DNA of 34,960 bases from Verrucomicrobiia bacterium (GCA_025451535.1 JANWKE010000122.1:1-34960); one strand, 5' to 3'. Shown: positions 4,688 through 26,956, counted from the stretch's first letter. Numbers and translations are program-made. Notes: generated by a model from the sequence alone, not told the origin.

Positions 4688-5143
4688 ATGGATTCCATGT
4701 CCTACGTCAGCTCCTATTTCCATTGCGCTTTCAGCACCAAGGAACGGCAGCGGCTCATCAGGCCCGAACTGCGCGAACGGCTCTGGCCGTTTCTCGGCGG
4801 CATCGCTCGACAGAACAAAATGAAAGCCATCGAAATCGGCGGCGTGGAAGATCACATTCATATTCTGGTTTCGCTGCCGTCCACGATGGCGATTTCCAAG
4901 GCAATGCAATTGATAAAGGGTGGTTCGTCAAAATGGATTCACGAAACGTTTCCCGAACACCGGCTGTTTGCGTGGCAGGAAGAATACGGCGCGTTCAGCG
5001 TGAGTGTGTCGCAGTTGGACAAAACCATCGGATACATCAAGGGTCAGGAGACGCATCATCGCAAAATGACGTTTCAGGAGGAATTTCTCGCGTTGCTGAA
5101 GAAACATCGCATCGAATACGACGAACGGTATTTGTGGAAATGA
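4688..5143 (+). CDS. REP-associated IS200-like tyrosine transposase
   Basis: A 151-residue Y1 transposase of the IS200/IS605 superfamily. It opens with SYFHCAFSTKERQRLI, has the HUH motif as EDHIHILVSLP (the two metal-binding His), and carries the catalytic Tyr in TIGYIKGQETHHRK near residue 119. Such enzymes cut and rejoin single-stranded DNA at hairpins. It is flanked on both sides by hairpin repeats, with no TnpB, which fits the RAYT group (REP-associated tyrosine transposases) rather than a classical IS200. The start could be the ATG at 4688, which touches the last bases of the repeat, or at 4697. The frame is intact and all catalytic residues are present, so it may still be active. Confidence 0.9.
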   Translation: MDSMSYVSSYFHCAFSTKERQRLIRPELRERLWPFLGGIARQNKMKAIEIGGVEDHIHILVSLPSTMAISKAMQLIKGGSSKWIHETFPEHRLFAWQEEYGAFSVSVSQLDKTIGYIKGQETHHRKMTFQEEFLALLKKHRIEYDERYLWK

Positions 5144-7200: not shown

Positions 7201-8874
7201 TCACGACGGTGATTCAACCGCCTCCTCGCTCGTTCCGTCAGGAGGCGTGACCACGGATTCGGCAGCCGGAACCTGGGCTTCGAAGGGTGCGGTCGATTCA
7301 GCCGTTGGCGTTTGAATCTCCGCCGCCGGCGCAGCCGCGACCTCGGCGGCCGATACGGGTTCCGTGGCCGAAATCGTTTCGCCTTCCGCCACCGGTTTTT
7401 CTGCAACCGGTTTTTTCTCCGGTTTGGGCGGCCGGGGCGCGGGCTTCTTGGCCGTCTCCAGCCGGCCGTCGGCGAACTCAATAACGTGGCCCTGATGCAC
7501 GAGCCAGTGCAAATCGGCGATGATGGCGTTTTGGTCCGGCGTCGGTTCGGCAGCCGCAACGGGAACTTTGGGTGTTCCGCCTTCCACCGGCGCGGCGGCC
7601 GGCAGCGCTTCCGTTGCGAGCTTGATTTCAATGATGGCCGGCTGCGGCGTGGGGGCGAGTGTTTCCATCAACTGCCGCCGGCTGCATTTCGGATGCGCAT
7701 TGATGTGGGCGATGAGGCGCCGGATATTTTCCGACACCGGCGTGGTTTCGAGGTCGAGAAACTGCGGACGCGCCACGGAAACGTGGGTGAAAGTCTTGTT
7801 GACCTTGAAGAACTGCAGACCGTGCGTGGCAAACTGCCGGCTGAGTTCGGTGGCCAGTTGCAGCGGAAAATGTCTTTGCTGCTCCCATTCGGTACGCACG
7901 AGTCGCTGCAATTCGCGGCTGCGCAGATTCCGGCTGGGTACCCCGGCGACGGTGTGCGTTTCGACCGATTTGATGATGGTTTCCTTGTGCGTCACGCGAA
8001 AATGCTTCTCGACCTCCTCCAGGTTCGGCAGCTTCAGCGGTTCGGGCACGTTCAAAACGACGTATTCGGTTTTGAAACTCTGTTCCTCGACCCACTTTTT
8101 GACGACGGCCTCGTCCTTCACGATCTTCACGCGGGCCTTGAACACGTCGAATGGCATCCGGGCAAACCGGTCGGCGTGCAATTTATGCAACCGGTTCTGG
8201 TAATCGTGATGGTTCGGCGGGCCGAGAATCACGCCGCTCATGCCGCATTGCGCGACAAACGTGTACGTGCCTTTGGGCGGCTCGGTGGCCGTGCGCTCGG
8301 CCTGATAAAACGTGGCGAAATGAGTTTTCAGGACGTGCGCGATCGCCTCGTCCTCGCTCAACCACGGCGTCTCGTCCAGCGCGCAAACGAACAGCGGCTG
8401 CGAGACGGCGCCTTCAGGCTTTTTCTTCACTGCCAGCCGGACGGTGTAGCGTTCCGGTTTCTGCAGGACGAGCTGCGCAATCTGGAACAGCGGATACGCC
8501 CGCCCGGTCATCTTGATCTGGCGTGCGAGTGATTCGACACCTCTTTCATCCGGCAGAAAAGTGACGGCGATCTCCGGCAGCAACGCGGGGGTTTCGCGGC
8601 GTTCGTCTTGCAAAGCGGGACGGCGGTCATCGCGGCGATCAAAACCCTTTCGACGGTCGCCAAATTTCGAACCGGGACGTTGCGGGCGGGGACCGCGCCG
8701 CTCGCCGAACGATTCGCTGCGCGACCGTTCCCGGTGGTCACCGCGCCGGCGTTCGGGCTTTGCGCCTTCGGCACCGGTAAATTTTTCATACGGGTTGGCC
8801 TCGGCCTTGCCCTGTGCCCACGCCGGCTGGAACAGGTTTTCCAGGTCTAAATCCATGTCGGGAATGCTGCTCAT
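7201..8874 (-). CDS. Conserved hypothetical protein with Arg-rich N-tail and Pro/Ala/Glu-rich C-tail
   Basis: A 557-residue cytoplasmic protein that I cannot assign to a named family. Residues 1-35 are acidic and aromatic; residues about 40-95 are rich in Arg, Asp and Gly with RRGDHRERSRSESFGERR-type blocks like those of RNA-binding tails. A compact core (about 95-400) has EIAVTFLPDERGVESLARQI, VAQCGMSGVILGPPNHHDYQ and HFRVTHKETIIKSVETH. The last 150 residues are low-complexity Pro/Ala/Glu (repeats like KPAPRPPKPEKKPVAEKPVA). No catalytic motif or membrane segment is visible. It lies 21 bases downstream of recA and upstream of rhlE on one strand, so a role with RNA or nucleic acids is plausible but inferred only from the tail and neighbours. 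An alternative start is Met7. Confidence 0.7.
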   Translation of the reverse strand: MSSIPDMDLDLENLFQPAWAQGKAEANPYEKFTGAEGAKPERRRGDHRERSRSESFGERRGPRPQRPGSKFGDRRKGFDRRDDRRPALQDERRETPALLPEIAVTFLPDERGVESLARQIKMTGRAYPLFQIAQLVLQKPERYTVRLAVKKKPEGAVSQPLFVCALDETPWLSEDEAIAHVLKTHFATFYQAERTATEPPKGTYTFVAQCGMSGVILGPPNHHDYQNRLHKLHADRFARMPFDVFKARVKIVKDEAVVKKWVEEQSFKTEYVVLNVPEPLKLPNLEEVEKHFRVTHKETIIKSVETHTVAGVPSRNLRSRELQRLVRTEWEQQRHFPLQLATELSRQFATHGLQFFKVNKTFTHVSVARPQFLDLETTPVSENIRRLIAHINAHPKCSRRQLMETLAPTPQPAIIEIKLATEALPAAAPVEGGTPKVPVAAAEPTPDQNAIIADLHWLVHQGHVIEFADGRLETAKKPAPRPPKPEKKPVAEKPVAEGETISATEPVSAAEVAAAPAAEIQTPTAESTAPFEAQVPAAESVVTPPDGTSEEAVESPS

Positions 8875-8895
8875 GGGAAAACGGCCGGGCCGTCG

Positions 8896-9933
8896 TCAGG
8901 CGGCCGCCCGCTGGGTGAGGATGGCACTCACGATTTTTTGGGCGAGCGCGGGATTTTCGACGAGCGCCTTTTGCGCGGCCTCTTTGCCCTGGCCGATCAA
9001 TTCGCCTTCAAATTGCAGCCACGCGCCTTTTTTGCCGACCACGCTGGCCTCCACGCCCACATCGAGGATGCTGCCTTCCTGGTTGATGCCGTGGTTGTAA
9101 ATGATGTCAAATTCGGCCTCGGCGAACGGCGGCGCGACCTTGTTTTTGACAATCTTGACCCGGACGTGATTGCCGATGGCGTTGCCGGCGGCGTCCTTGA
9201 GTGTGTCCTTGCGGCGGATGTCAATGCGCACACTGGCGTAAAATTTCAGGGCCTTGCCGCCGGGGGTCGTTTCGGGATTGCCGAACATCACGCCGACTTT
9301 CTCGCGCAATTGGTTGGTGAAAACACAGGTCGTTTTGGACTTGGCCAGAATCGCCGTGAGTTTGCGCAGTGCCTGGCTCATCAGTCGCGCCTGCATCCCC
9401 ATGGTGGCCATGCCCATCTCGCCTTCCAGTTCGGCCTTCGGCACCAGCGCGGCCACGGAGTCAATCACGATCACATCCAGCGCGTTCGAGCGGGCGAGCG
9501 TTTCGCAAATGGTCAGCGCTTCCTCGCCGGAATCCGGCTGGGACACGAGCAGGTCGTCCAGGTTAACGCCCAGTCTCTTCGCGTAGCCCGGGTCCAGTGC
9601 GTGCTCGGCGTCAATGAACGCCGCCAGTCCGCCGGCCTTTTGGGCGTTGGCGATGATATGCAGCATGAGGGTGGTCTTGCCGGAGGATTCCGGCCCGAAA
9701 ATTTCCACGACGCGCCCGCGCGGGATGCCGCCGACCCCGAGCGCCAGATCCATGGCGAGCGAGCCGGTGGGGATGACGTCAATTTTCACCTGTGCGCGGG
9801 CGTCGCCCAGGCGCATAATGCTGCCTTCGCCGTAGCTTTTAGTGATGGTGGCAATGGCGGCGTCCAGCTCGCGCGAGCGCGACGCGGCGGCTTTGGTTTC
9901 AACGGCGGATTTATCAGCGGCTTTCGGCGGCAT
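8896..9933 (-). CDS. recA: Recombinase RecA
   Basis: RecA forms filaments on single-stranded DNA, drives homologous strand exchange and triggers LexA self-cleavage. The ATG at 9933 gives 345 residues, the usual size; the frame stays open for almost 600 bases further upstream but that part overlaps the opposite-strand lipoprotein gene and has no RecA character. Walker A GPESSGKT is at 80-87, followed by [19 protein letters not shown], the L1 region with [37 protein letters not shown] (L2) and the C-terminal [17 protein letters not shown] block. The N-terminal tail is Ala/Lys-rich and longer than in E. coli. It heads a minus-strand group with the 557-residue protein and rhlE. Confidence 0.98.
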
Positions 9934-9973
9934 AAAATTCGGGGTAATTTCGTTGTTGGTCGTCCGAAATAAG

Positions 9974-10002
9974 ACACTAGTAAATTGGCCGGGAATAGTC
10001 AA
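9974..10002 (-). promoter_or_regulatory. Candidate recA promoter
   Basis: On the minus strand, TTGACT (10002-9997) and TAGTGT (9979-9974) are separated by 17 bases, 41 bases before the recA ATG. The -35 is a near-perfect sigma-70 match, the -10 is weaker. An ACTAGT palindrome overlaps the -10, but no recognisable SOS box of E. coli or Bacillus type is seen. Confidence 0.45.
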
Positions 10003-10068
10003 ACCCTGATAAAAGAAACCGCACGCAGAATGATTGAAAACCGGGCCGGGCTCCGGCAGTGTGTCGGC

Positions 10069-10587
10069 ATGAAAGCGATAAAATGGCTGCCCCTGGTCCT
10101 GGTTGTGGTCATGGCCGCCGGCTGCAAAAAGGCCGAAAGCACCGGGACGCCGCCGGACGCGGAGAACCAATTGCCCACGCAGGCGCAACCGAAATTGCGC
10201 ACGCTGAAAATCTATCTGGGCGCGGAAACCCTGGACGCCGAGCTGGCCACCACCCGGCGCGAGGTCGAGACCGGTATGATGTTTCGCACCAACCTCACCG
10301 ACGAAAGCGCGATGTTGTTTGTTTTTGCCCAGCCGTACCAGGTTTCGTTCTGGATGAAAAACTGTCCGGACTCGCTCTCCGCCGCCTATATCGGCCCTGA
10401 CGGCGTGATTCAGGAGATCCATCATCTCGAAAAATACGACACCAACTCGGTCGTGGCCGCAAAACCGGACATCCAATACGTCCTGGAGGTCAACGACGGC
10501 TGGTTCCAACGGCACAATGTCAACACCGGCATGTTGATTCGCACGGAAGTCGGTTCCCTGCAGGATACGTTCTTCCGCAACCGGTAA
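10069..10587 (+). CDS. DUF192 lipoprotein
   Basis: A 172-residue exported lipoprotein. It starts [21 protein letters not shown]: a short basic head, a hydrophobic core and a lipobox (M-A-A-G-C) with the lipidated Cys at about residue 20. This fixes the ATG at 10069 rather than earlier in-frame starts. After a Pro/Thr linker comes a DUF192 domain: [36 protein letters not shown], the long-lived 'FWMKNxxxxL' signature, and [14 protein letters not shown]. The family is widespread in bacteria and archaea without an assigned reaction. It is divergent from recA (135 bases between starts) and convergent with the next gene, with only 6 bases between the stops. Confidence 0.85.
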
Positions 10588-16130: not shown

Positions 16131-16148
16131 CCGGACAGGTTTGCAACT

Positions 16149-16223
16149 GTAGCGGCGCTCTATGAGCGCCGCATTTCATTTTTGTGCCAGAATGATTTTC
16201 CGGCGGTCACAGACCGCCGCTAC
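16149..16223. repeat. Double-hairpin intergenic repeat, copy 1
   Basis: GTAGC, then GGCGCTC-TAT-GAGCGCC (16154-16170), an A/T-rich spacer, GGCGGTC-ACA-GACCGCC (16202-16218), then GCTAC. The outer GTAGC and GCTAC pair with each other. The same layout is found at 26876-26948 and, with other stem sequences, at 33115-33189. It lies just past the end of the sigma-factor operon and may act as a 3' stabiliser or terminator. Confidence 0.8.
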
Positions 16224-16312
16224 AGCAAAACTGCCGTTGAACCACATCTGCTCGAACGATACAAATTCCATTTGAGCAAAACCGGCGATGGCGGTACTGT
16301 GGGCGTTGCTTT

Positions 16313-16389
16313 GCGCGCGTAGCTCAATTGGATAGAGCGTCGGCCTCCGGAGCCGAAGGTTGTGGGTTCGACCCCCGCCGCGCGTACCA
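16313..16389 (+). tRNA. tRNA-Arg, anticodon CCG
   Basis: A complete cloverleaf: acceptor GCGCGCG (16313-16319) pairs with CGCGCGT (16379-16385, first pair G-U), D arm GCTC/GAGC, anticodon arm TCGGC/GCCGA with loop holding CCG at 16347-16349, T arm GTGGG-TTCGACC-CCCGC (16362-16378). The discriminator A and an encoded CCA (16387-16389) follow, then a run of six T. It reads the Arg codon CGG. It sits immediately upstream of the accessory cluster starting at 16598. Confidence 0.97.
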
Positions 16390-16561
16390 GTTTTTTCTGT
16401 GTCTTCGTTGCCGTCGCAACTGAACCAAAAACCAGCGGCGACCCAATCCATTTTAAACTACCAATACACTGAATTACCTGCTGGAAGGCTGGAAAACTGC
16501 CTGAAATCGCTCAAAAACACCCACAAATACGCAGTAAACAACTCTCGACTTGTATTTGTAC

Positions 16562-16590
16562 TTGCGACTTTAATTTGAAAGTCGTACCTT
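16562..16590 (+). promoter_or_regulatory. Candidate promoter with palindromic operator, abiEi-like gene
   Basis: CGACTTT-AATTTG-AAAGTCG (16565-16584) is a perfect 7-base inverted repeat. It is placed between a -35-like TTGCGA (16562-16567) and a -10-like TACCTT (16585-16590), 17 bases apart; transcription would start at or beside the ATG at 16598. An extra half-site CGACTT lies at 16546-16551. AbiEi-type antitoxins are known to repress their own promoters through inverted repeats, so autoregulation is likely. Confidence 0.5.
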
Positions 16591-16597
16591 TATTTGC

Positions 16598-17665
16598 ATG
16601 AAAGAGATTCGATTCGAGTATCCGATAGAAAACTTCCCGGGTTTTCTGGCTGACGCCGCTTGGGGCGATACCGTATACGAGGTGCTCGTGGAAACCAAGG
16701 ATGCCCGAAGGTTGCGCACGGCTTTGATGGAAATGGCCCGGGTCGCCGCGTCAGACAAGGTACGTCGCGCGGTGCTGGTGCTGGAAGAGCCGGCCATCAC
16801 GGAATCCCGCTTGCGCGAAGAATGGCAGGGAGCAGCTTCGGTCATCCGGCCGGAGCTTTTCGGTCGCCTGGCCATGGCGATTCGTCAATCCGGGAAATGG
16901 AGTGGCATCCCGGTTTCCCCGGACACCGGGGAAGTTCCGGTCCTGGATGAAATCCTCCGGCATGAAATCTCGCGTCGGCCCGCCCCGTCGGGCAGAAATT
17001 CAGAGGCCCACTATGAGATACTGCGCATCCTCATTCACCAATGGCTGCTCGGCCGGGGGCCGTTCGCAATCAATTCACTCATGAAAATTTCCGGGACCAG
17101 CCACCCGACGGTCTCACGTTCCCTCGATCGTCTGGACCATTATTTGAAACGCCATTCCGACCGCAGTGTCGAACTGCGAATTTTCCCGCGCGAAGAATGG
17201 GCACGCTTGCTGGCGGTGTCGGATGACGTTCGCGGCACGGTTCGTTTCGCCGACCGTTCCGGCCAGCCGCGCTCGCCGGAATCCTTGCTGCGTCGTTTGG
17301 GCCAGCTTCGACTTCCCGCTATTGCCATCGGTGGTGTCCTGGGGGCAGAACATTACCAGCCCGCCCTCGACCTCATCGGTAATCCGCGCCTCGACATTTG
17401 CCTCCACGCCGGGCGCAAGGCCGCCGACCTTTCGTGGGTTGAACGCCTTGATCCGGGTCTCGAGCGAACGGTTCGCCGCGACGAATCACCGGCCGTGGTG
17501 ATTCACACCCTCCGGCGGGCAGAGTCGCTTTTCCAACCCGGGGCCGACGGTCTCCCCTGGGCCGACCCGGTCGAATGTCTGCTCGATTTGCACGAAGCGG
17601 GTCTTGAATCCCAGGCGCTGGAGTTTCTGAATTCATTCCCTGTAACCCGAGGCAGCCCGTTATGA
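16598..17665 (+). CDS. AbiEi-like transcriptional regulator / antitoxin
   Basis: A 355-residue protein. Residues 1-100 form an alpha/beta region with DTVYEVLVETKDARRL; residues about 138-185 are a winged helix-turn-helix (FAINSLMKISGTSHPTVSRS, LDRLDHYLKR); residues about 225-347 resemble the C-terminal domain of type IV AbiEi antitoxins, with AIGGVLGAEHYQPAL, a strand of the PRLDICLH type, and the ending WADPVECLLDLHEAGLESQALEFL that parallels the family's 'VSPVQLYLDL...EAA..L' helix. Its stop overlaps the start of the nucleotidyltransferase gene (ATGA), as in AbiEi-AbiEii pairs. The extra N-terminal 130 residues are not part of the classical AbiEi, where the HTH is at the N-terminus. The family call is by motif reading and gene partner. 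Confidence 0.65.
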   Translation: MKEIRFEYPIENFPGFLADAAWGDTVYEVLVETKDARRLRTALMEMARVAASDKVRRAVLVLEEPAITESRLREEWQGAASVIRPELFGRLAMAIRQSGKWSGIPVSPDTGEVPVLDEILRHEISRRPAPSGRNSEAHYEILRILIHQWLLGRGPFAINSLMKISGTSHPTVSRSLDRLDHYLKRHSDRSVELRIFPREEWARLLAVSDDVRGTVRFADRSGQPRSPESLLRRLGQLRLPAIAIGGVLGAEHYQPALDLIGNPRLDICLHAGRKAADLSWVERLDPGLERTVRRDESPAVVIHTLRRAESLFQPGADGLPWADPVECLLDLHEAGLESQALEFLNSFPVTRGSPL

Positions 17666-18603
17666 GCCGTGACGCCAATGTGAAATTGATTTCGCCCGGG
17701 GCGGTTCTGAAACAAATCGCCGCCGCCATTCCGCCGGACTTCCGGCAAAACATCATCATCGTCGGCAGCCTGGCGGCGGGCTATCATTTCTTTGGCGACA
17801 ACCCCAGGCTGCAAGTCCGCACCAAAGACGTGGATTGCCTTATCTCTCCGCGCATCAAGGCCATCCCTGCCGGACAGGCCGTCGCGGACCGTTTGTTTGC
17901 CGAGCAGTGGCAGTTGCGGACCGAGGGTAGTTGGGGCAAACCCGGTGATGCCCGGACTCCCGAAAACCGGTTACCGGTCGTCCGACTTCATCCGCCCGGT
18001 TCGCAGGATTGGTTCATCGAACTCCTCACCGTTCCCGAGTCCGAAAACGATCTCGACCGGAAAGACCTTCGCCTGGTTACCACCAAAGGGCATTTCAGCC
18101 TGTGCAGCTTTCGTTTTCTGTCGCTGGTGGAATTCGAGCCCGGCGCGACTCCGTTTGGCATCGCCATCGCCCGCCCCGAAACCATGGCGCTGGCCAACTT
18201 GCTGCATCACCCGGTGATCGGGAAAGAGACGATGAGTGGTCTGATTGCCGGCCGTCGCATCAAACGCAGCAACAAAGACCTGGGGCGCGTCCTTGCGCTG
18301 GCCCGGCTCACGGAAGGCAAGCGGGAGGATTCACTGCTGGAATGGCCAAAAATCTGGGCGGCTGCGCTGCAAAGCCGCTTCCCGTCGCACTGGCGCGAAC
18401 TCGCTCCACGAGTGGGGGCCGGGTTACGGCAACTGCTGCGCCCGGAAAATGAAGCCGACCTGGAAGAGGCCCGTCATACGTGCGAAAACGGGTTGCTCGC
18501 TTTCCAGGCACCCTCGCTGAAACTGTTGGAAATAACGGGGCAACGGTTGCTCCAGGATGCCGTTGAGCCGCTCGAAAAAATCTCCACGGCACCGCGAGGA
18601 TAA
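17662..18603 (+). CDS. AbiEii-like nucleotidyltransferase, putative toxin
   Basis: A 313-residue protein of the DNA polymerase-beta-like nucleotidyltransferase fold. The core motif is IIIVGSLAAGYHFFG (Gly35-Ser36) followed by TKDVDCLIS with Asp56 and Asp58, the metal-binding pair; a possible third acidic position is in DWFIELL. The C-terminal half is helical with KRSNKDLGRVLALARL, similar in place to the helical half of AbiEii toxins. Such enzymes add nucleotides to tRNA or other targets and stop growth when not balanced by the antitoxin. It is translationally coupled to the AbiEi-like gene. The helicase-nuclease gene follows after 201 bases. That gap (18604-18804) shows no clear gene or terminator, so the helicase may have its own promoter. 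Confidence 0.7.
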   Translation: MSRDANVKLISPGAVLKQIAAAIPPDFRQNIIIVGSLAAGYHFFGDNPRLQVRTKDVDCLISPRIKAIPAGQAVADRLFAEQWQLRTEGSWGKPGDARTPENRLPVVRLHPPGSQDWFIELLTVPESENDLDRKDLRLVTTKGHFSLCSFRFLSLVEFEPGATPFGIAIARPETMALANLLHHPVIGKETMSGLIAGRRIKRSNKDLGRVLALARLTEGKREDSLLEWPKIWAAALQSRFPSHWRELAPRVGAGLRQLLRPENEADLEEARHTCENGLLAFQAPSLKLLEITGQRLLQDAVEPLEKISTAPRG

Positions 18604-18804
18604 CAGTAAACGCTGCAAAATTCGTCTGTTCTGCTCATCAAACGGCACCTGGGCGTTCCGGGGATGGTTCACTATCACACCCGAAAAGCGCGCGAAATTG
18701 CGCCTGAAAATTGAAAGTTTCACCAATTTTGAACGCAGCAGGTTCAATCCCGGTCTAAAATCTCCGCCTATTAGACAGACAAGGGGGACTGAAATAGACG
18801 CACC

Positions 18805-21800
18805 ATGAATGAGCTAAGACCCATACCATCACTACCATTAACCGCATCACCATCATCGGAACCGGCAGAGCGGCTGCTGAAAATCTTTGAGTTCCTGAAA
18901 ACCTACCTCGATTTGCGCTACCCGCACGTGCGGGACATTGGGCAGCAAATGCGGGTGCTCCGGCTGAACGACCTGCCGCAGCACGCGGCCATTGAAATCT
19001 TCCGCCCGAACGGCGATCCCGAACAGGAATCGGAGGAGGACAGCGACATCATTTTGCGCATCACGCGGCCCGGCCTGACACATTGCCCGACGCCACCGGC
19101 GGCGATTGCCGACTGGCTGAAACCCGGCTGGCAGGAGATTGACGCCAGTGCCGAGATCCAGCCGTCCCGGACGGTGCGGGAAAAGAACGGGTCGACGCGG
19201 GTTGAGCGGTTTGAAGAAGTGCCGCAACGCCCGGCCTCGTTCCGGAAATGGCAGGAGGAACGGGCCGAATGGCAGCGGAACGAACAGCCGGCCCGCCAGG
19301 CGCTCGCGACTTTCCAGGCGGCCTATGAATGGTTTGGCATCCATGAACGCGAAGCGGAACAAATCGAACTGCTGGTTGGCGACGGACTGTTGCATTGTCC
19401 CGACGCAGCCGGGGCGTTCAACCATCAGGTGCTGCTCCAGCGGCTGGAACTGGAATTCTATCCGGAAAAGGGCAACCCGCAATTCGTCTTCCGCAAACGC
19501 GAACAACCGCCCGAATTGTATGTGGAATTTCTGCGCCTGCTCCCGCAGGCAAACCACCAGCAAATCGCAAAATGCGTGGACGAGTTGAAGCAAACCGAAC
19601 TGTCACCCTTGGGTGGAGAGGAGACCGACGGATATCTGCGCCGGTTGATTTACGGCATCTTTCCGGGCGCCGGCGAAATGCTGGCTGCCGGCGAACCGCC
19701 CAAAGACGACCAGCCGAGCATCCGCCGGGCGCCGGTCATCTTCATGCGCCAGCGCCGTTCGGGAGTTGAGAATGTGTTAGATATGGTGCGGGAGGACATC
19801 GGCAAGCGGACAGATTTTTCCGCCGCCCTGCTGCAAATCGTGGGCCTCGGCAATGGGCATCCGGCTGCGGCGCCGCGGCCAGTGCCTTCGCCAGGAACCG
19901 CCACCGGGCATGGTGACGCCGAAATTCTGTTGAGCAAGCCGGCGAACAAGGAGCAGCTGGAAATTGCCCGCCAATTGACGAAGCGCGATTGCGTGGTGGT
20001 GCAAGGCCCGCCGGGAACCGGCAAGACGCATACGATTGCGAACCTGCTTGGCCATCTGCTGGCGCAAGGCAAGCGCGTCCTCGTCACGGCGCACACCCCG
20101 AAAGCGTTGCGCGTGTTGCGGCAGAAAGTGGTGGCGGCGTTGCAACCTCTGTGCATCAGCGTTCTGCATAATGACCGGCAGAGCCAGGCGGAATTGCAGC
20201 AGTCCGTCCGACAAATCTCGGTCCGGCTCGCCCAGGATGACCAGGTGTTGGAGCGGGAGGCGGAACGGATCCGGCGCGAACGCGAACGGATTATGGCCGA
20301 ACTGGCCCGGGCCCGGGCACGATTGCTGGAGGCGCGCCAGGATGAAATCCGCGGCGTCCAGCTCGGTGGCAAAGCGGTCAGGCCGGTTGACGCCGCGAAA
20401 CGGGTGAAACGGGGTGTGGGTTCGGACGATTGGATTCCGGGCCCGGTCAATTTGGGCGAGGAACCGCCGCTGTCGCCGGCCGAAGTCGCCGCGCTTTATC
20501 ACACCAACGCGCGGGTCAGTCTCCGCGACGAACGCGAGTTAAAGGCGGGCCGCCCCGACACCAAGGCACTGCCAACCCCTGCGGCGTTCCGGGAATTGAT
20601 GGACGAAATCGGCGCCTTGTCTGCGCAGAACCTCCGCTACCGGGAGGAATTGTGGAATGGAGCCGCCGGCCCCGATGATTTGGCGGAGTTCGACCGCATG
20701 TTGTCCCGCGCCACCAGGGCCATTGAATTTTTGAAGGACAGCGCGCCATGGCAACTGGAAGCCGTGCAAGCCGGGCGCGATGGCAGCAGCGCGCGGCAGG
20801 TCTGGGATTCGCTGGTCGAGCTGATTGATAACTCCTGGAGCGAGATCCAGGCTTGCCACACCCAGGTCATGACCCACGGTCCGCAAGTGGACGACCAGCG
20901 ACCGCCGCGTGAATTGCTGCCCATCGTGGACGAGATTATCGCGCACATTGAATCGGGAAAGTCGTTCGGGCGGTTGACGAAACTGACCAGGCCCCATTGC
21001 CACCAGTTTATCACCACCGTGCGTCTGGGCAATCGTCCGCCGGCCCTGGACCAGCCGGCACAGTTCCGGGCGGTGCGGGCGTTGCTTCGCATGCAGATCG
21101 TCCGGGAGGAACTCGCCGAACGGTGGGCGCGGCAGATGTCGTCCCACGGCGCCCCGCCGACAGACGCTTTGACCGACCAGCCGGAGAAGGTCGCCCACGG
21201 TTTCGTGCCGACGATTCAGAATTGCCTGGACTGGCACAAGTCAACCTGGCTCGCGCTGGAAGCTGATTTTGAGCGGCTCGGTTTTCACTGGCAGAGTTAC
21301 CTGGAATCCACCCCGCCGGAAACCGGGGCCAACGCGGCATTGCGCCGCCTGCGCACGGCGGTGACCGGCGAATTGGAAACCATTCTTAAGGCGCGTGCCG
21401 GCCGGCTGCGCGAAAAATATCTGGAAGGGGTGTGGACCACCTGGCTGGCGGCGCTCCCGGAGAGCGGCCAGCCGGAAGCAGCGGCAACCCGGGAATTGAG
21501 AACATCCCTCCGGGAAGCGTCGCCGACGGATTATGAACAGGCTTACGAGGAATTGGTTCGCCTCAAGAACCTTGAACCGGACCTGGAGTCGCGTCGAAAT
21601 CTGCTCGCCCGTCTGCAGGCCAGCGCGCCCGCGTGGGCCTCGGCGGTGGAAAACCGTCATCCCGATCACGCCCGGCCGGAACCGCCCGGCGATCCGGCGG
21701 CAGCCTGGGAATGGCGGCAGTTCCATGATGAGCTGGAGCAACGGGCAATGGTTTCGCTCGACGAATTGCAGCAGCACATCGAGCGCCTCAACCATGAACT

Positions 21801-23445
21801 CATGGAGGCCACGGCGCAATTGGCCGAAAAGCGAACGTGGGCGAGTCTGATCCGGCAAACCAGTCCGGAGCAGCAGCACGCGCTGAAATCATATGCCCTC
21901 ACGCGGAACAAGCTGTCGAAAACCGGCACCGGCGTGCGCGATGCGGAATTGCGGGCCGCGGCGAGAAAGGAATTGACCGTGGCCAAAGCCGCGGTGCCCG
22001 TATGGATTATGCCGTTGAACGAAGTCGCCGACTCGTTCGATCCGCGCACCACCCGGTTCGATGTCGTGATCATTGACGAAGCCAGTCAGTGCGATCCGAC
22101 GGCCATGTTCGCACTGTATCTTGGGCGTCAGGCCGTCATCGTGGGTGATGACGAGCAGGTGACGCCGGTGGCGGTGGGCGTGGACATGAAGGAGGTCGAG
22201 GGGTTGATTGACATTCACCTGCCTAAGGATTTTCCGTCGCGGCAACATTACGACGGGACCACCTCCATTTACGAATTGGCGCAGGTGTCGTTCGGCGGTG
22301 TCATCCGGCTGGTGGAACACTTCCGTTGTGCGCCGGACATCATCGCGTTCAGCAATCACCTGTCCTACAAGGGCGAAATCAAGCCATTGCGCGAGGCTTC
22401 CGCCATCAAGCTCGCACCGCATATCATTCCATACCGCGTCGAATGGGACGGCGGTGTCCAGCCGCAGGAGGAATCCAATCAAGCGGAAGCGGAAGCCATT
22501 GCCGCGCTCATTTGCGCCGCACTGGAACAACCGGAGTATGCGAAGAACGAGGAAGGCAAACCGACAACATTTGGTGTCGTGTCCATGGTTGGCGATCGGC
22601 AGGCGATGAAGGTGGACGCAATTTTGCGCCAGCACATCGAACCGGCCGAATACAGACGCCGCCGGATTCTCTGCGGCGATTCGGCGCAATTCCAGGGCGA
22701 TGAACGGGACGTGATGTTTCTGTCCATCGTGGATGCCCCGTCGGCGAAACCACCGCTTCCTTTAAGGCAGGAAGGGCCAAAAAAGATTTTCAAGAAACGG
22801 TTTAACGTCGCTGCCAGCCGGGCGCGCGACCAGATGTGGGTGGTGCACAGTCTCGACCCCGAAACCGACTTGAAGCCGGGCGATTACCGGCGCCGATTGA
22901 TCGAGCACGCCATCAACCCCACGGCGTGGGAAGAAAAAGCGGACCCGCTGCCGGATAAAATGGAGTCCGCGTTTGCAAAGCGGGTGCAGGCCATCCTGCA
23001 AGCGGCGAATTTTATCGTGTTGCCTCGCTTCAAAGTCGGCAGCCACCGGATTGATCTGGCCGTGGTCGGCAACGGACGGCGATTGGCCGTGGAGTGCGAC
23101 GGCGAACGGCACTTCGAACCGGAACAATTGCAGGAAGACCTGGAGCGCCAGGCCGTATTGGAGCGGCTCGGCTGGCAATTTGTCCGCGTGCGCGGGAGCG
23201 TCTTTTTCCGCGACGAAGAGCGGGCGATGGAGCCGGTCTTCCGGCGGCTGGAGGAGCTGGATATCACTGCGGACGCGAAACTGGCCGGTCCGGAGTCTCC
23301 GGCCGGGAAGGATGAATTGGTGCAACGGGTAATCCGGCGGGCCAAAGAATTGCGGGCTGGCTGGCAGCACGGAAAACCGTCCATCGAACTGGTCAAACGC
23401 CTGAGCCTGCCCAACCCGCGAACCCGCCGTGTTCGCATGCGATAA
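18805..23445 (+). CDS. Large SF1 DNA2/NAM7-type helicase with C-terminal REase-like domain
   Basis: 1546 residues. The N-terminal 390 residues show no motif I recognise. The SF1 core is split: Walker A GPPGTGKT at 401-408, then about 680 residues of mostly helical, Arg/Glu-rich insertion, then Walker B IIDEASQCDP (Asp1091-Glu1092), GDDEQVTPV (motif III), LVEHFRC (motif IV), QFQGDERDVMFLS (motif V) and FNVAASRARDQMWVV (motif VI). Residues about 1390-1480 resemble the MTES_1575-type restriction-endonuclease fold often fused to such helicases: HRIDLAV with Asp1417, AVECDGERHF with Glu1430 and Asp1432, then LERLGWQFVRVRGSVFF. It should be an ATP-driven nucleic acid motor with nuclease activity. 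The setting beside a TA-like pair suggests phage or plasmid defence (inference). The core motifs are complete and the frame is intact. Confidence 0.85.
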   Translation: MNELRPIPSLPLTASPSSEPAERLLKIFEFLKTYLDLRYPHVRDIGQQMRVLRLNDLPQHAAIEIFRPNGDPEQESEEDSDIILRITRPGLTHCPTPPAAIADWLKPGWQEIDASAEIQPSRTVREKNGSTRVERFEEVPQRPASFRKWQEERAEWQRNEQPARQALATFQAAYEWFGIHEREAEQIELLVGDGLLHCPDAAGAFNHQVLLQRLELEFYPEKGNPQFVFRKREQPPELYVEFLRLLPQANHQQIAKCVDELKQTELSPLGGEETDGYLRRLIYGIFPGAGEMLAAGEPPKDDQPSIRRAPVIFMRQRRSGVENVLDMVREDIGKRTDFSAALLQIVGLGNGHPAAAPRPVPSPGTATGHGDAEILLSKPANKEQLEIARQLTKRDCVVVQGPPGTGKTHTIANLLGHLLAQGKRVLVTAHTPKALRVLRQKVVAALQPLCISVLHNDRQSQAELQQSVRQISVRLAQDDQVLEREAERIRRERERIMAELARARARLLEARQDEIRGVQLGGKAVRPVDAAKRVKRGVGSDDWIPGPVNLGEEPPLSPAEVAALYHTNARVSLRDERELKAGRPDTKALPTPAAFRELMDEIGALSAQNLRYREELWNGAAGPDDLAEFDRMLSRATRAIEFLKDSAPWQLEAVQAGRDGSSARQVWDSLVELIDNSWSEIQACHTQVMTHGPQVDDQRPPRELLPIVDEIIAHIESGKSFGRLTKLTRPHCHQFITTVRLGNRPPALDQPAQFRAVRALLRMQIVREELAERWARQMSSHGAPPTDALTDQPEKVAHGFVPTIQNCLDWHKSTWLALEADFERLGFHWQSYLESTPPETGANAALRRLRTAVTGELETILKARAGRLREKYLEGVWTTWLAALPESGQPEAAATRELRTSLREASPTDYEQAYEELVRLKNLEPDLESRRNLLARLQASAPAWASAVENRHPDHARPEPPGDPAAAWEWRQFHDELEQRAMVSLDELQQHIERLNHELMEATAQLAEKRTWASLIRQTSPEQQHALKSYALTRNKLSKTGTGVRDAELRAAARKELTVAKAAVPVWIMPLNEVADSFDPRTTRFDVVIIDEASQCDPTAMFALYLGRQAVIVGDDEQVTPVAVGVDMKEVEGLIDIHLPKDFPSRQHYDGTTSIYELAQVSFGGVIRLVEHFRCAPDIIAFSNHLSYKGEIKPLREASAIKLAPHIIPYRVEWDGGVQPQEESNQAEAEAIAALICAALEQPEYAKNEEGKPTTFGVVSMVGDRQAMKVDAILRQHIEPAEYRRRRILCGDSAQFQGDERDVMFLSIVDAPSAKPPLPLRQEGPKKIFKKRFNVAASRARDQMWVVHSLDPETDLKPGDYRRRLIEHAINPTAWEEKADPLPDKMESAFAKRVQAILQAANFIVLPRFKVGSHRIDLAVVGNGRRLAVECDGERHFEPEQLQEDLERQAVLERLGWQFVRVRGSVFFRDEERAMEPVFRRLEELDITADAKLAGPESPAGKDELVQRVIRRAKELRAGWQHGKPSIELVKRLSLPNPRTRRVRMR

Positions 23446-23595: not shown

Positions 23596-23922
23596 ATGAG
23601 CGTGAACGAAAAATTTTCGGCGATTCGGAAGGGGCTGCTCGAGCTTCTCGTGCTGCAGATCATCGCGGCGGAGAAGGTTTATGTGGCGGACATCCTGAAG
23701 CAGCTCAGCGCGACCGAATTCGCCACCCAGGAAGGCACGCTGTATCCATTGCTGAGCCGGATGCGCCGCGAAGGGCTCCTGGATTACGAATGGAAGGAAT
23801 CCGAGGCCGGGCCGCCCCGCAAATATTACGAGCTGACCGCGAAAGGCCGGGAGCAGTTGCGCGAAACCCTGGAGTATTGGGGCCAGATCAACGGGACGGT
23901 GAAAAAACTGGGGCAAAAATAG
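23596..23922 (+). CDS. PadR-family transcriptional repressor
   Basis: A 108-residue winged-helix repressor. The family pattern is complete: RKGLLELLVLQIIAAEKVYV, ILKQLSATEFATQEGTLYP with the recognition helix, LLSRMRREGLLDYEW and the wing GPPRKYYELTAKGREQL. Members dimerise and respond to small molecules or to envelope state. It is followed after 14 bases by the PspC-domain gene and preceded by a palindrome that is very likely its own operator. PadR-PspC pairs occur in several phyla and suggest control of a membrane-stress protein. Confidence 0.93.
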   Translation: MSVNEKFSAIRKGLLELLVLQIIAAEKVYVADILKQLSATEFATQEGTLYPLLSRMRREGLLDYEWKESEAGPPRKYYELTAKGREQLRETLEYWGQINGTVKKLGQK

Positions 23923-26875: not shown

Positions 26876-26948
26876 GTAGTCGTGGCGCTCTGGGAGCGCC
26901 GCATCCTTTCATTTTGCGGAAATGTCGGCGGTCGCAGACCGCCGCTAC
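26876..26948. repeat. Double-hairpin intergenic repeat, copy 2
   Basis: GGCGCTC-TGG-GAGCGCC (26884-26900), spacer with TTTCATTTT, GGCGGTC-GCA-GACCGCC (26927-26943), then GCTAC (26944-26948); a slightly altered GTAG at the other end. The two stems are the same as at 16149-16223, only the loops and spacer differ. It ends 9 bases before the stop of the oligopeptidase gene on the minus strand. Confidence 0.8.
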
Positions 26949-26956
26949 ATTAAATC

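Follow-up and report, generated by a model that had tools for sequence, protein, structure and literature searches.

Introduction

Three consecutive genes beside a tRNA-Arg gene in a Verrucomicrobiia bacterium raise the question of whether they form one defence system, or a smaller unit and an incidental neighbour. They encode a winged-helix protein (REG), a nucleotidyltransferase (NT) and a very large helicase-nuclease (HEL), and lie in a stretch of 34,960 nucleotides (GCA_025451535.1 JANWKE010000122.1:1-34960), which we call the window. An earlier note on this DNA had proposed that the three act together, with REG and NT as an AbiEi/AbiEii-type toxin-antitoxin pair.

By examining the distribution of each gene among related genomes, assisted by structure models and an analysis of promoter repeats, we arrive with moderate confidence at a different reading: REG-NT is a nomadic toxin-antitoxin-like module carried in or beside nuclease-based defence operons, and HEL is a stand-alone neighbour. 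A doubtful three-gene system is thereby replaced by a more specific and testable two-gene family, which no model searched in Pfam, PADLOC or NCBIfam matches, and which recurs inside restriction-modification (RM) operons and bears a sharp tandem-repeat signature of 19 bp. A literature search of partial coverage, with most preprints outside it, found no earlier description of the pair.

The tRNA-Arg site

REG, NT and HEL are three open reading frames, all on the plus strand after tRNA-Arg, and the flanks consist of housekeeping genes (recA, an aminotransferase, a peptidase and an epimerase), as the earlier note had described (Table 1). Its account of the individual genes also held: REG and NT overlap by 4 bp in an ATGA; REG is a helix-turn-helix protein whose C-terminal WADPVECLLDLHEA helix begins at residue 321; and NT bears the nucleotidyltransferase signature GS...DVD (GS at 35-36, TKDVD at 54-58).

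Table 1. Positions of the features discussed, counted from the first nucleotide of the window
Feature	Coordinates	Strand	Description
tRNA-Arg (CCG)	16313-16389	+	found by ARAGORN; left edge of variable site
Variable segment	16394-23520	.	~7.1 kb; ~90 bp instead at the syntenic G022 locus
Tandem operator-like repeat	16546-16585	+	two CGACTT-headed units exactly 19 bp apart (16546, 16565)
REG	16598-17665	+	355 aa, putative autorepressor/antitoxin; REase-like N-terminal domain, winged helix 130-207, conserved C-terminal domain
NT	17662-18603	+	313 aa, MenT/JHP933-fold nucleotidyltransferase, putative toxin; GS...TKDxD...E120...K205-D206
HEL	18805-23445	+	1546 aa, SF1 (AAA_11/AAA_12) helicase with C-terminal MTES_1575 nuclease; PDC-S37/ProA/Hhe-like
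PadR regulator	23596-23922	+	first gene right of variable site; syntenic in G022

The corresponding locus of a congener (G022, L042) shares the window's gene order on both sides, namely aminotransferase, LTXXQ proteins, ECF sigma factor, two small ORFs and tRNA-Arg on the left, and PadR, PspC, S9 peptidase, epimerase and a transketolase-like gene on the right. There PadR follows the tRNA after ~170 bp, and the ~90 bp at the place of the window's segment hold none of the three genes. Because this site is empty and the same tRNA-Arg in another genome (G024, L041) is followed by other cargo, we regard the segment as variable. The segment encodes no integrase, a search for att direct repeats of 12 bp or more gave none, and tRNA-borne integration was therefore rejected. 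By inspection, the cargo in G024 includes a 1068-aa ORF resembling secreted glycosidases and a PEP-CTERM-like protein (L041:4148-9075). Elsewhere in the window, an ORF at 4688-5143 resembles, by inspection, REP-associated (RAYT-type) transposases, and REP-like palindromes (TGTAGCGGCGGTCTGTGACCGCCG, at most 3 mismatches) occur at 16148-16171, 16201-16224 and 26926-26949, three where none is expected.

REG and NT as a unit

A scan of the genome collection with REG returned 15 loci, with NT after REG in most and HEL in none, and 388 genomes of the phylum yielded five further pair loci, likewise without HEL. At these related loci genes were called with a simple codon-usage script, selected neighbours were checked by Pfam or PADLOC, and L022 and L027, being the same place, were counted once. 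Distances among REG and among NT sequences are strongly correlated (Mantel r 0.91, p 1e-4; 13 loci, with host relatedness left in). REG is found without NT at two loci (L026 and L028), at one of which a REG-like gene is followed by a Pfam-confirmed NERD nuclease-related protein in place of NT (L028:3061-4805). Accordingly, we do not tie the role of REG to NT alone, and REG may pair with other effectors. A REG-like gene with a similar NERD-like ORF was also noticed at L036:1960-2934, by inspection only.

The tandem repeat upstream of REG recurs, with 19-bp direct repeats preceding the gene at 16 of 17 loci. At a shift of 19 the mean best match is 21.2/30, against 11.4 (sd 0.54) under a null of first-order Markov resampling of the sequence (z about 18), and 19 and 38 are the only shifts that stand out. 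The repeat sequence varies among loci and the 19-bp spacing is constant. The second unit of the window (16565) is palindromic (CGACTTT-AATTTG-AAAGTCG), and CGACTT-N13-CGACTT has a single occurrence in its own genome, upstream of REG. Judged from their arrangement in the DNA, the repeats are likely an operator, through which REG-NT apparently regulates itself.

Fold and motifs of REG and NT

Structure searches with the REG model (pLDDT 84, pTM 0.64) identified the winged helix, matches to which alone filled the match list, so that other parts of the protein were barely probed. The assignment of a restriction-endonuclease-like N-terminal domain is drawn from weak structural matches to XPF, MUS81 and FANCM (Foldseek E-values all >0.001) together with an E-V-K motif present in most relatives. 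The window copy reads E28-V-L, and from this substitution it is probably without nuclease activity.

The NT model (AF2; pLDDT 86.8, pTM 0.88) aligns by VIA-align with MenT3/TglT, MenT4 and MenT1 at Z ~9-10 and with JHP933 at Z 7.6. The values for MenT3/TglT (Z ~10 over 224-230 aligned residues) and MenT4 (Z 9.6) indicate the bilobed pol-beta-type nucleotidyltransferase fold; this assignment is based on VIA-align Z and aligned length, the Foldseek E-values being weak (all >0.001). Motifs I-II of the form hG[G/S]xnDhD are present, with a spacing of 19 and not 15; G35, S36, T54, K55, D56 and D58 are invariant in 13/13 loci, as are E120 and K205-D206 in the 13 NT sequences. D206 is a candidate motif IV aspartate, assigned by position only. 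Where the motif III lysine of AbiEii (K173; motifs as in PMC3985639) would be expected, at position 179, NT has Asn in 12 of 13 sequences and Ser in the other, so that catalysis may be different or lost. The invariant K205 nearby could be a substitute, going by sequence position rather than by residue-level superposition.

How far do these features place the pair in a known family? Like REG-NT, AbiE (AbiEi COG5340, AbiEii DUF1814) consists of two adjacent genes, the regulator first, and combines a winged-helix regulator and repeat operators upstream with a pol-beta nucleotidyltransferase bearing hG[G/S]...DhD (PMC3985639, PMC7319586). However, neither protein of the window matches Pfam: at E<=1 the AbiEi model matched none of 13 REG members, which gave weak HTH matches only, and the AbiEii model none of 9 NT members. 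Nor did PADLOC or NCBIfam recognise REG or NT, their one match being a weak one to CARF_TM through the HTH alone, and an NT profile searched against PDB sequences matched no solved structure. REG further differs from AbiEi by its extra REase-like domain before the winged helix, and the 19-bp direct repeats of the pair differ from the 23-bp inverted repeats that serve AbiEi and Rv2827c as operators (PMC7319586); NT is set apart from AbiEii by its motif I-II spacing (19 versus 15) and by an Asn where the motif III lysine would stand. Direct AbiEi/AbiEii membership was thus rejected, there being no profile match for either protein, and since both profile searches and the motif III lysine failed to support it we do not claim that REG-NT belongs to AbiE.

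NT is comparable to the toxins of MenAT systems (MenT1/3/4, TglT) in aligning over most of its length with MenT3 and MenT4 and in a T-x-D motif such as T39/D41 of MenT1 (PMC10435456), but identity is ~10%, NT lacks a lysine at the sequence position expected to be equivalent to K137/K189, and the partner protein is another one. What the earlier note had said of the pair is thus retained in part: a toxin-antitoxin-like unit is supported by the MenT/JHP933 fold, the overlapping genes, co-evolution and the operator array, whereas the AbiEi name has to be dropped. We infer toxicity of NT, its neutralisation by REG and an anti-phage effect from fold and context, and infer repression by REG as well. 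Once free, NT would probably stop growth by modifying part of the translation machinery, for example tRNA.

Association with restriction-modification operons

Of 16 genomes with the pair, 7 have an N6-methylase no more than 10 kb from NT, where 0.32 would be expected (Poisson P 5e-8); the count mixes loci from different searches, and in one of the seven (G326) the distance is 9.7 kb. Recurrence inside or beside RM operons is thus above chance, and type I RM, rather than HEL as had been supposed, is the recurrent partner of the pair. At L024, N6_Mtase/HsdM_N is followed by REG-NT and then by Methylase_S (hsdM-REG-NT-hsdS). At L027 an hsdM-like ORF (N6_Mtase at the corresponding place in G085) precedes REG, after which stand a truncated NT and an hsdS-like remnant. 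The downstream genes of L025 encode a HIT protein, a type IV-like helicase and HsdR, besides an HsdM-like ORF; the pair comes directly after hsdR at L056, and has hsdM, hsdS or hsdR around it at L059 and L060. NT and hsdS overlap by ATGA at L024 and L029, as do NT and an hsdS-like remnant at L025; at L029 and L025 the hsdS ORF was recognised by its likeness to that of L024. Other loci have DUF499/HmaC (L030) or an HNH and a WYL gene (L035) near the pair, and in the stretch read at L023, L057, L058 and L031-L033 no recognised defence gene was found. The RM context occurs in several clades and needs 5 changes on the tree, by which its being a clade trait was rejected. On the 5' side of one pair (L029:8062-8331 and G488:C71:11701-12636) stand a short ORF that by inspection resembles TIR-type nucleotide-binding proteins and an hsdM containing one internal TAG, so that the RM operon there may be decayed.

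Toxin-antitoxin units inside type I RM systems are already known in principle from DarTG2 (PMC12255303). In the RptR-DarTG2 system of EPEC ('guilt-by-embedding'), as here, such a unit is embedded in an hsd operon and direct repeats act in operator control, three of them forming the RptR operator (PMC12255303). The differences are that toxin and regulator belong to other families, that DarTG2 lies between hsdS and hsdR whereas REG-NT lies most clearly between hsdM and hsdS, and that the regulator REG belongs to the pair itself.

The same precedent can be turned against a toxin role, since RptR, a repressor with direct-repeat operators, controls type I RM (PMC12255303). REG-NT might then be a regulatory, non-toxic RM accessory, in which REG, in the manner of C proteins or RptR, would time the expression of hsdS/hsdM downstream and NT would be a modifier without toxicity. 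The REG promoter and its operator array inside the hsd operon, directly 5' of NT-hsdS with its ATGA coupling, would fit such a role, as would the missing canonical motif III lysine of NT; but in several genomes, as in the window, the pair has no hsd genes nearby, the invariant nucleotidyltransferase motif, like the resemblance to MenT in fold, points to an enzyme that is active, and we consider this explanation unlikely.

Similarly doubtful is a reading of REG-NT as chiefly an addiction module, one that keeps mobile or variable segments stable and has no anti-phage role. The specific enrichment at type I RM speaks against it, as does the lack of any REG or NT homologue among 72,556 plasmid records; nor were homologues of either found in viral contigs. 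Its attraction lies in the scattered distribution of the pair (6/388 phylum genomes), the strain-variable segment in which it sits, the precedent of AbiE, which is capable of plasmid stabilisation (PMC3985639), and genes that by inspection resemble those of a recombinase (near L033) and a transposase (near L032).

The reading that we prefer, a nomadic toxin-antitoxin-like module, would have REG-NT ride repeatedly inside or beside type I RM and other nuclease-based defence operons, and plausibly serve its host operon as a second, growth-arresting layer or as a stabiliser. A more elaborate idea, which we put forward tentatively and consider unlikely, is that REG-NT acts as a guard for defences that cut DNA. 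Through its REase-like domain REG would read the status of the DNA or host operon while holding the 19-bp array and NT, and blocking or loss of the partner RM would free NT and arrest the cell. Partners would change (type I RM, Hma-like, HNH and, here, the helicase-nuclease), and REG would also work with effectors such as the NERD protein. If the toxin role is true, the family would be a new case of restriction combined with a layer of growth arrest, and would allow a direct approach to the question of whether embedded toxins guard restriction systems.

HEL as a probable independent neighbour

The HEL ORF is intact and agrees with the earlier description of a 1546-residue SF1 helicase with a D...ExD nuclease: it has AAA_11/AAA_12 domains with the motifs GPPGTGKT at 401 and IIDEASQ at 1089, and a C-terminal match to MTES_1575 (E 9e-24) with D1417...E1430-x-D1432. 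Helicase and C-terminal stretches are common to HEL and the PDC-S37, ProA, Hhe and Mko helicase-nucleases (E 3e-53 for PDC-S37 and 1e-53 for ProA), but HEL falls far below the curated NCBIfam cut-offs (182 versus 1500 bits for ProA, 126 versus 2000 bits for Hhe) and is thus a relative without assignment to either.

Among 97 relatives, two (G014 and G025) have an orthologue of HEL, with 62-63% identity, and the pair is in neither of these genomes (75-81% complete). A few plasmids encode HEL-like proteins (~31% identity over most of the length), and there REG and NT have no matches. Within the same 97 relatives, NT is confined to its own genome and G085, where HEL is not nearby; at every other REG-NT locus HEL is missing from the stretch read, which was up to 10 kb long; and full-length HEL is in none of 11 other genomes with REG loci. 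No independent genome searched was therefore seen to combine REG, NT and HEL, and the trio as a conserved unit was rejected; as many genomes are incomplete MAGs, these absences of HEL or pair are suggestive, not final. Upstream of HEL we found no similarity to the corresponding sequence of G014 or G025 and no convincing copy of the REG-type operator.

The proposal that the three genes act together therefore did not stand, HEL and the pair being found apart, whereas a relation of each to defence did, in that both resemble or neighbour defence genes. A single three-gene system, in which HEL would degrade foreign DNA and NT, freed from REG, would halt growth as a backup, is very improbable: the genes are contiguous on one strand within a segment missing at the congener's site, and HEL is like anti-phage helicase-nucleases, but against this stand the separate occurrences just described, the want of an operator copy 5' of HEL and a 201-bp gap between NT and HEL, which leaves HEL without translational coupling. 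HEL is probably a stand-alone neighbour of REG-NT, adjacent by chance and most likely working alone, and in the window it shares the variable segment at tRNA-Arg with the pair.

At L061:2417-7024 and 7631-10426, the HEL orthologue of G014 adjoins a TrwC-type relaxase, which suggests a mobile element. The C-terminal part of a further HEL relative lies at a contig end (L062:15936-17060), beside a pair of AbrB-like and PIN-domain-like ORFs that is VapBC-like by inspection.
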